DNA of 50,557 nt. It comes from an uncultured Cytophagales bacterium. Lineage in GTDB: Bacteria > Bacteroidota > Bacteroidia > Cytophagales > UBA9547. The translations under genes were made by a program, and so were the position numbers. The stretch covers positions 1 to 50,557 of the forward strand of contig CAMFLX010000016.1 of the NCBI GenBank assembly GCA_945957555.1, in the 5' to 3' direction. Position 1 is the first letter of the stretch. Each line of letters opens with the position of its first letter. This document shows, one piece after another, positions 23,929 to 45,444 of this stretch. Under the pieces are notes generated by a model. That model did not search any database, had not been told where the DNA came from, and saw only the letters and a program-made list of their open reading frames with translations.

Positions 23929-23952
23929 TCACTGACCAAAAACATTAGTTTT

Positions 23953-24129
23953 AACCCAGATTAAGCATTAGACTTTGTAGCGAGACGAAATGATAGAAAA
24001 AAGTCATGAGACTCGGAGTTTTTCTGAATGAAAAGCTAGTAGTGCTAGCTTGAATGAAGAAAAACGAGTATCGAAATGAATTTGAGGTAGCATTTTGTCA
24101 TAGTAAATTTCTAATGATTAATCTGGGTT
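23953..24129. repeat. Long imperfect-palindrome element, copy 1 (MITE-like)
   Basis: A 177-bp element with terminal inverted repeats: AACCCAGATTAAGCATTAGA at the left and TCTAATGATTAATCTGGGTT at the right. The inverted symmetry continues imperfectly to a central AAGCTAG / CTAGCTT pair around a 5-nt loop, so a single strand could fold into one long hairpin. TTAA lies at the left boundary and within 1 nt of the right boundary. A nearly identical copy in reverse orientation is at about 43864-44034. With the region to 24353 this covers the gap between genes; from 24160 to 24353 nothing else is seen except a TATTTTTG motif at 24291. Confidence 0.8.
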
Positions 24130-24130
24130 T

Positions 24131-24159
24131 AAAAGCCATCGAATTGATCGATGGCTTTT
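24131..24159. terminator. Hairpin terminator
   Basis: The 12-bp stem AAAAGCCATCGA / TCGATGGCTTTT has a 5-nt loop and is followed by TAATTTTC. It immediately follows the palindromic element and probably ends transcription from 23557. Confidence 0.75.
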
Positions 24160-31631: not shown

Positions 31632-31916
31632 AGTGCATACATTTACTCGATAATACGAATAGGCGTTCAAAGCTTTATGCGGTGGTACCTATCTCCGAAT
31701 GACACGAAGGCTTTCCGTAGGGTTTTATTTCAAGATAAATAATCTAAGGGTCGTCGTTTCGGTCACCATGTACACAAGGTTACTATTTTTTGCTTAGAAT
31801 TCCAAGCACTGATTTAGTGTTAAGTTTTGGGGTTTGAATGTTGGATTTTGGATGAAATGAATTTCACTCACTAGCCCATTAAAGACATTCTAAGTCTTCG
31901 AGACTTCGCAACCCGC

Positions 31917-32105
31917 GGAAACTCCCCCGCAGGTTATGGAAACTCCCCCGCATGTTATGGAAGCTCCTCCGCAACTTATGGAAGCTCTCCCGCAGGTTAT
32001 GGAAACTCTCCCGCAACTTATTGAAACCCTTCCGCATGTTATGGAAACTCCCCCGCAACTTATGGAAGCTCCTCCGCAACACATGGAAACCCTTCCGCAG
32101 TACTT
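31917..32105. repeat. 21-bp tandem repeat (minisatellite), nine units
   Basis: Nine consecutive 21-bp units, each of the form GGAA, CYCYYCCGCA and TTAT with limited variation. A period of 21 keeps all frames open. The plus strand reads Met-Glu-(Thr/Ala)-x-Pro-(Gln/His)-x heptads and the minus strand reads (Leu/Met)-Arg-x-Ser-Phe-His heptads. No promoter or ribosome site is seen for either, so it is treated as non-coding. It lies in the 918-bp gap between the kinase gene start and the pectate lyase gene. Confidence 0.85.
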
Positions 32106-32121
32106 AGCCATGGATCAATTG

Positions 32122-43793: not shown

Positions 43794-43863
43794 CTTAATG
43801 ACAAAGAACATATTGCACTTTCCTACAAGTATTTTTCACTTTTTGACATGCGATAATAGTAGA

Positions 43864-44034
43864 ATAATCATTAGAAATTTACTGCGACAAAATACTACCT
43901 CAAATTCATTTCGATACTCGTTTTTCTTCATTCAAGCTAGCATTACTAGCTTTTCATTCAGAAAAACTCCGTGCCTCATGACTTTTTCCTATCATTTCGT
44001 CTCGCTACAAAGTCTAATGCTTAATCTGGGTTAA
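43864..44034. repeat. Long imperfect-palindrome element, copy 2 (inverted)
   Basis: Nearly the same sequence as 23953-24129 in reverse orientation, with only a handful of mismatches by eye. The outermost part of its left end is degraded (ATAGTAGAATAATCATTAG in place of the AACCCAGATT end), while the right end CTTAATCTGGG is intact and is followed by TTAA. It lies between the AraC gene and the integrase island. The gap up to 44247 also holds a perfect palindrome at 44033, two GTTTACCC copies near 44178 and 44190, and a promoter motif. Confidence 0.8.
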
Positions 44035-44064
44035 ACCTATAAGGTTTTAAAACCTTATAGGTTT
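44033..44064. repeat. Perfect 32-bp palindrome
   Basis: The half AAACCTATAAGGTTTT is followed directly by its exact reverse complement. It abuts the palindromic element copy 2 and precedes the integrase gene by about 180 bp. It could end transcription from the AraC gene, although no T-run follows, or be a dispersed intergenic repeat. Confidence 0.7.
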
Positions 44065-44247: not shown

Positions 44248-45444
44248 ATGGCAACACTAAAGATCGTATTCAGGAAGGACAAAATCAACAAGCGGGGCGA
44301 ATGCCCGATCCACTTCCGCATCACCAAGGACAGAAAGCCTAGGTACATAGCCTCTGGCATCATGGTTCCCGAGCAAGCATGGGACGAGAAGAACACAAGG
44401 GTAAGGCCGAGCGTCCAGAACAGCGCAAGGCTCAACGCCCTGCTACAGACAAAGTTTGCCGAGGTACAGGCTATGTTTCTGGAATCCGAGACCGTGGACA
44501 GGTCTTTGTCATCCACACAGATCAGAGACAAGGTAAATGGAAAAGCAAGCATAGGGTTCTTTCCCTTTGCCGACAGAATGGTGAACCGTTTCAAGGATCA
44601 GAAGAAAATCGGAACGTACAGGGACAGGATGGGCATCATAAACAAGCTGGAACGTTTCCTTGGGAACAGGAACGCATCGTTCTCCGACATCACCCATGCC
44701 GTTCTGGAACGTTTCACCGAGTATATGCGTACCGAACTGGGCAACAAAACGAATACCATCACCCACAACCTCAAGTTCCTGAAGGCCGTCTACAACGAGG
44801 CACTGCGCAAAGAGGTGATAGAGTACCACCACAACCCTTTCAGGCAGATCAAGTTCCAGACGGAAAAGACCCAAAAGGGCTTCCTTACCGAACCAGAACT
44901 GGAATCACTGGTAAAACTGGAACTTTCGGGCAATCCCCAGCTTGAAATGTACAGGGACATGTTCCTTTTTGCCTCCGAGACTGGCGGTGTAAGGATTTCA
45001 GACCTACTACAGCTCAGGTGGGAAAAGATCGACGGATCGCACGTACACTTTACCACACGCAAGACCAAGGGGCAGATGTCGTTGAAATTGCCGAACAGGT
45101 CTTTGGAGATCATTGAGAGGTATAGGCGCAAGACTGGCTACCTGTTCCCAGTACTTGACGAGGAAATGGATACGGAAGATGCGGAACTGCTCCACGATTC
45201 CATACAGGAGGCAACATCGAAGGTGAACAAAGGTCTCAAGGAACTCTCCAAACTCGCAGGGATCGACAAAAAGGTGACCACCCACATAGGAAGGCACACT
45301 TGGGCAACGAGGGCATTGAGAAAGGGCATACCCGTGGAGAAGGTATCGAAGCTCATGGGACACTCTACGATCCTTATGACCTTGGACTATGCCAAGATCG
45401 TGAACGAGGATCTGGACAGGGCAATGGACGTGTTCAATTCATAG
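44248..45444 (+). CDS. Tyrosine recombinase (integrase) of Bacteroidota mobile elements
   Basis: A 398-residue site-specific recombinase. It has an N-terminal arm-type DNA-binding domain (about 1-90, IVFRKDKINKRGECPIHFRI), a SAM-like core-binding domain (about 105-200) and a catalytic domain (210-398). Catalytic residues are all visible: R249 (GGVRISDLL), K274 (RKTKG), H346 and R349 (HIGRHTWATRAL), H372 (GHSTILM) and Y381 (LDYAKI). It appears intact. Its GC-rich codon use differs sharply from the neighbouring chromosome and from the RiPP genes downstream but resembles that of the HTH gene at 47907, so these two are probably one module. Confidence 0.93.
   Translation: MATLKIVFRKDKINKRGECPIHFRITKDRKPRYIASGIMVPEQAWDEKNTRVRPSVQNSARLNALLQTKFAEVQAMFLESETVDRSLSSTQIRDKVNGKASIGFFPFADRMVNRFKDQKKIGTYRDRMGIINKLERFLGNRNASFSDITHAVLERFTEYMRTELGNKTNTITHNLKFLKAVYNEALRKEVIEYHHNPFRQIKFQTEKTQKGFLTEPELESLVKLELSGNPQLEMYRDMFLFASETGGVRISDLLQLRWEKIDGSHVHFTTRKTKGQMSLKLPNRSLEIIERYRRKTGYLFPVLDEEMDTEDAELLHDSIQEATSKVNKGLKELSKLAGIDKKVTTHIGRHTWATRALRKGIPVEKVSKLMGHSTILMTLDYAKIVNEDLDRAMDVFNS

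Follow-up and report, generated by a model that had tools for sequence, protein, structure and literature searches.

The window analysed here, a stretch of 50,557 nucleotides from an uncultured Cytophagales bacterium (contig CAMFLX010000016.1), contains only one long inverted repeat, the arms of which (23946-24124 and 43861-44039) are 95% complementary and lie 19,736 nt apart. The two palindromic copies in opposite orientation, about 20 kb apart, that were noted in the initial annotation were thereby confirmed. The core of copy 1 is a 173-bp palindrome at 23955-24127 (CCCAGATTAAG...TTAATCTGGG), and copy 2, at 43858-44030, is inverted and 95% identical to copy 1. The 20-bp end occurred three times in the window at three or fewer mismatches, compared with 0.00 expected, so that chance can be dismissed and the finding is genuine. 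The features of the two copies are as follows.

23950-23954, + strand: left target duplication TTTAA; the same 5 bp flank both sides of the core
23955-24127, + strand: MITE copy 1, 173-bp core; subfamily 1, with six differences from the consensus; full-length imperfect hairpin
23955-23972, + strand: left terminal inverted repeat CCCAGATTAAGCATTAGA; an end of this kind is found about 137 times genome-wide and also on IS1380 elements elsewhere
24110-24127, - strand: right terminal inverted repeat CCCAGATTAATCATTAGA, matching the end
24128-24132, + strand: right target duplication TTTAA, equal to the left flank
43858-44030, - strand: MITE copy 2, in inverted orientation; AGT in place of the outer CCC at the low-coordinate end, flanks unmatched
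44013-44030, - strand: intact terminal inverted repeat of copy 2, an exact match
44031-44035, + strand: flank TTAAA of copy 2; the flank at the other end, ATAAT (43853-43857), does not match

Both window copies belong to subfamily 1, and each carries 5-6 changes from the subfamily consensus. Because they are 95% identical and each differs from the consensus in this way, the copies are related but were not freshly duplicated from one another. Copy 2 has lost the outer CCC and the target duplication and is therefore probably immobile. It is flanked by a gene for an AraC-type regulator on one side and a tyrosine integrase gene on the other. The integrase, which has an Arm-DNA-bind_5 domain (44248-45444), directly adjoins copy 2 and may mark where an integrated element ends.

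Homologous recombination between the copies could invert the 20-kb segment. It is extremely unlikely, however, that the pair constitutes an inversion switch for this segment: the copies are inverted, 95% identical and 19.7 kb apart, and an integrase gene lies beside copy 2, as would suit a switch, but the genome holds about 70 similar copies, so that this pair is not singled out, and one end of copy 2 is damaged. Elsewhere in the window, a 21-bp tandem repeat (CGCAACTTATGGAAGCTCTCC type) lies between divergent genes at 31886-32121 and can be read as a short open frame with a repeating unit of seven residues.

The host assembly comprises 6.25 Mb in 413 contigs, the smallest of which are about 2.56 kb. 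When the whole assembly was searched at three or fewer mismatches, the end AACCCAGATTAAGCATTAGA was found 69 + 68 times and the reversed-pattern control was not found; BLAST scored 40 copies. At two ends per copy, these 137 ends suggest about 70 copies. A count across the genome had been proposed as a check on mobility, and the window pair proved to be two of many. We extracted 43 start-end pairings; those of 182 and 209 bp are probably mispaired. The core was 173 bp long in 33 pairings, 172 bp in three, 177 bp in one and 53 bp in four. The terminal inverted repeats are 18 bp long, mostly with 0-2 differences between the two ends, and the 173-bp element has no coding capacity for a transposase. 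The 53-bp forms retain both ends and look like internal deletions between the TTTGT motifs of the two arms. By alignment, subfamily 1 comprised 23 copies (mean 1.4% from the consensus), subfamily 2 eight copies (0.7%) and subfamily 3 four copies; there were also two singletons, one of them aligned in the opposite orientation. Many contigs terminate about 50 bp inside the element, indicating that the element itself broke the assembly. At the end of one contig (L060, G000:C238), an apparent Nextera adapter sequence inside the MITE is an assembly artefact.

Identical 5-bp flanks were present in 27 of the 43 host pairings (TTTAA in 13, TTAAA in nine, TTCAA in three, and TTGAA and GTAAA in one each). 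In other genomes the duplication was exact in 43 of 80 pairings and was again mostly TTWAA. The exact identity of the 5-bp flanks indicates that the element proper extends from CCC to GGG and that the target is TTNAA. The initial annotation had described a palindrome of 177 bp; the palindrome is correct, but the length is 173 bp, because the outer AA/TT are part of the target duplication.

One interrupted gene was found among the insertion sites. Copy L016 (contig C6) sits within a gene, and excision of the core together with 5 bp restored an open frame of 138 + 74 residues (212 aa). Across the junction, the restored frame matched positions 2-97 of the PF13640 (2OG-Fe(II) oxygenase) profile with an E-value of 2e-21. 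The left piece alone had no PF13640 match, and the right piece matched only from position 25. This restoration is the most direct sign of insertion.

Among the 27 duplications that differ at one base, from the host and other genomes, 10 differ at the centre compared with 5.4 expected (one-sided p 0.03; the comparison is post hoc and one pairing may be wrong). The excess could arise from a 4-bp TTAA duplication, from chance or from a piggyBac-like donor overhang, and it carries no weight in our conclusion. We rejected a 4-bp TTAA duplication for the centre-mismatched copies, as the frame of L016 is restored by removal of 5 bp, not 4. Further, a TnpA-REP/IS200-type REP element, for which no target duplication is expected, was rejected on account of the clear 5-bp duplications.

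The initial annotation had suggested a search for a transposase gene with the same ends. In the host assembly, neither IS1380 (PF13701) nor other DDE_Tnp_1 (PF01609) transposases were matched; as the smallest contigs are about 2.56 kb, a collapsed insertion sequence of 1.4 kb could be missing from the assembly. Such genes were found in other genomes. In a scan of the phylum, contig C70 of genome G387 carried a frameshifted transposase gene enclosed by the two ends at a distance of 1398 bp, and a 1398-bp element (L117, in genome G221) encoded an intact transposase of 442 aa, which was assigned to the IS1380 family (NF033539, E 1.2e-78, above the cut-off; PF13701, E 2.7e-50). The 18-bp ends CCCAGATTANGCAWTAGA are common to the MITE and the IS1380 elements L117, L119, L287 and L288. 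L287, in a Cytophagales MAG, is 1405 bp long with both ends; L288, in a Calditrichota MAG, has one end, the other lying beyond the contig; and a Kapaibacterium MAG has a decayed IS1380 copy with such ends (L291). These IS1380 transposases are 46-66% identical to each other, and PF13701 matches were found in six of eight further genomes carrying the ends.

When GTDB contigs were scanned for the exact 18-mer, 31 stretches were returned. Because about seven hits were expected by chance (estimated as 2 x 257 Gb / 4^18), isolated hits (such as L077, L088 and L094) were left out of the count, which was confined to genomes having many hits and to hits that showed paired ends and duplications. The MITE has little in common with the IS1380 elements beyond 18-20 bp of the end and 12-16 bp of subterminal sequence, suggesting that its direct parent is not among the elements found. 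L117, L119 and L288 each have, near one terminus, a further partial copy of the end (TTCTAATGCGTAGCAATAGA type) that faces inward; 12-16 bp of these copies also match the right end of the MITE.

Two other protein families were considered as mobilisers and rejected. The host has six genes of the 23S-IVP four-helix-bundle type, none with these ends, and GxxExxY/PDDEXK_3 (PF13366) genes were absent from the host and gave no convincing case near the ends elsewhere. The six 23S-rRNA-IVP-like genes (PF05635; L105-L110) are located at C10:60262-67302 and C38:17139-17453. Five cluster on C10, with FtsW-like and MurG-like neighbours in L107, and the sixth has a dehydrogenase-complex gene on either side (L106); imperfect inverted flanks accompany some of the six.

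Two members of the IS1380 family, IS1247 (PMC3281130) and ISEcp1 (PMC2887853), duplicate 5 bp, TATGA in the latter case. As its ends match those of IS1380-type transposons, the MITE probably moves by borrowing such a transposase, and an IS1380-family transposase is the likely mobiliser. The absence of an IS1380 transposase from the host assembly might instead point to a transposase of another family that happens to recognise similar ends. We consider this very unlikely, because at least four other genomes hold IS1380 elements delimited by the same 18-bp ends and a duplication of 5 bp suits this family; in addition, PF01609 and PF13366 proteins are absent from the host and its 23S-IVP genes do not have these ends. 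As judged from sequence, therefore, the copies are a mobile palindromic MITE family with IS1380-type ends. The earlier proposal of a TTAA-targeting MITE stands as regards the MITE, given about 70 copies, exact duplications, an interrupted gene and IS1380 ends elsewhere, and was nearly right as regards the target, which is a duplicated TTNAA.

ERIC and similar repeats are whole-length imperfect palindromes, mostly intergenic, with a stable hairpin. The MITE resembles these ERIC-type repeats (prokaryotic MITE review, PMC10969869) in all three respects but has its own ends and a 5-bp TTNAA duplication, and it occurs in Bacteroidota and Calditrichota, not in enterobacteria. MITECca01 of Cardinium, which derives from ISCca4 of the IS982 family (PMC9769881), is likewise short and gene-less, with terminal repeats of an IS family and many copies in a Bacteroidota host; in contrast, the present MITE has IS1380-type ends, is a whole-length palindrome and has no parent in the assembly. 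With IS1380 insertion sequences (NF033539/PF13701; IS1247, ISEcp1) it has the 18-bp ends and the 5-bp A+T-rich duplication in common; it differs in the lack of a transposase gene, its length of only 173 bp and an interior that is an unrelated palindrome. The eukaryotic piggyBac elements have ends that begin with CCC and a TT..AA target similar to that of the MITE, but the duplication is the 4-bp TTAA and not the 5-bp TTNAA. In studies of piggyBac, IS1380 transposases have served as a prokaryotic outgroup and are treated as distant relatives (PMC10813416, PMC10140906).

The predicted RNA fold of a 185-nt stretch containing the element was -59.8 kcal/mol compared with -31.6 for shuffled sequences (z -8.3), and the DNA fold was -37.1 (z -9.3 relative to shuffles). 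The window contained no match to an Rfam family at the gathering score. A 172-bp element of Saprospiraceae Bin_11_1 aligned with the host element over its whole length, and structures predicted separately for the two groups had 47 pairs in common. The host structure has 61 pairs, of which the Saprospiraceae group kept 51 (shuffled null mean 39), 12 of them with two-sided compensatory changes (null mean 2.9); none of 5000 shuffles reached either value. None of the 12 double changes falls in the terminal repeats; all are in the inner arms. A pair-count test agreed, with two-sided changes in 16 of 44 pairs and three or fewer when the partner was slid. Divergence between the host and Saprospiraceae groups was 0.34 at paired and 0.32 at unpaired sites, and five of the 12 double changes were transversional. 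The equal divergence and these five double changes, for which there is no single G-U intermediate, make arm-to-arm copying a serious alternative to selection.

Among the subfamily 1 copies in the host, no structural constraint on individual copies was seen: the ratio of paired to unpaired change rates was 0.79, GT-making changes numbered six and AC-making changes five, and there were no compensatory doubles. These values bear on whether the element is mainly a host RNA or DNA hairpin (a terminator, mRNA stabiliser or regulatory site) that spread only secondarily. The very stable fold, the compensatory changes between two genomes and the more stable folding of one strand than the other in almost all members agree with such a role, but the rates within subfamily 1 do not, and one copy interrupts a gene. 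Further, tandem, divergent and convergent gaps were occupied in proportions (21/9/7) similar to the window background (15/5/4). We therefore regard a mainly host-serving hairpin as very unlikely. The lack of constraint within subfamily 1 and the unbiased gene context suggest that the structure matters, if at all, to the element lineage and not to each host locus. With two genomes and few changes per subfamily compared, the palindrome seems to be kept within the amplifying lineage, whether through selection or through copying between its arms, and not as a host RNA. The initial annotation had set a mobile element against a conserved RNA structure; this division was too sharp, as the sites are mobile, yet compensatory change between genomes has preserved the hairpin.

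We thus consider it highly probable that the element is a non-autonomous palindromic MITE, that it was mobilised by an IS1380-family transposase and that its hairpin is maintained in the amplifying lineage. An IS1380-family DDE transposase, since lost from the genome or missing from the assembly, would have acted by binding to the terminal repeats and placing the elements at A+T-rich TTNAA targets. The hairpin may be maintained either by a benefit of foldback to the element, in transposition or in tolerance once transcribed, or by copying of one arm onto the other during replication or repair. A stronger proposal, which appears unlikely, is that amplification of IS1380-type MITEs needs whole-element foldback, for example as a hairpin or cruciform intermediate, so that the palindrome would be under selection within the element both in Bacteroidota and outside that phylum. 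Centre-base differences would then be in excess because of a piggyBac-like joining step, with a TTNAA overhang from the donor pairing with the target and leaving duplications that differ only at the centre base. For the non-autonomous MITE favoured here, the compensatory evolution of the hairpin makes it testable why many bacterial MITEs are whole-length palindromes. Such elements also fragment short-read assemblies, disrupt genes and provide inverted repeats that can serve in rearrangement.

A search of 58 further genomes from the host's family and order did not find the element, except for one 31-bp partial match in another family; the nine genomes of the host's own family that were covered lack it. 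In viral contigs, the exact end had no match and the degenerate pattern had one match at a contig edge. A literature search for the end sequence returned unrelated matches only, and in the literature searched we found no description of MITEs with IS1380-type ends in these phyla. Degenerate ends numbered 612 in the Calditrichota MAG (G447), 105 in the Cytophagales MAG, 96 in Saprospiraceae Bin_11_1 and 66 in F. columnare NBRC 100251; some assemblies from Cytophagales, Saprospiraceae, Flavobacterium and Calditrichota thus contain from tens to hundreds of such ends each. The interiors of the elements in the Calditrichota MAG (L079, L083, L098 and L101) carry CACGAATTACACGAATTAACAC motifs.
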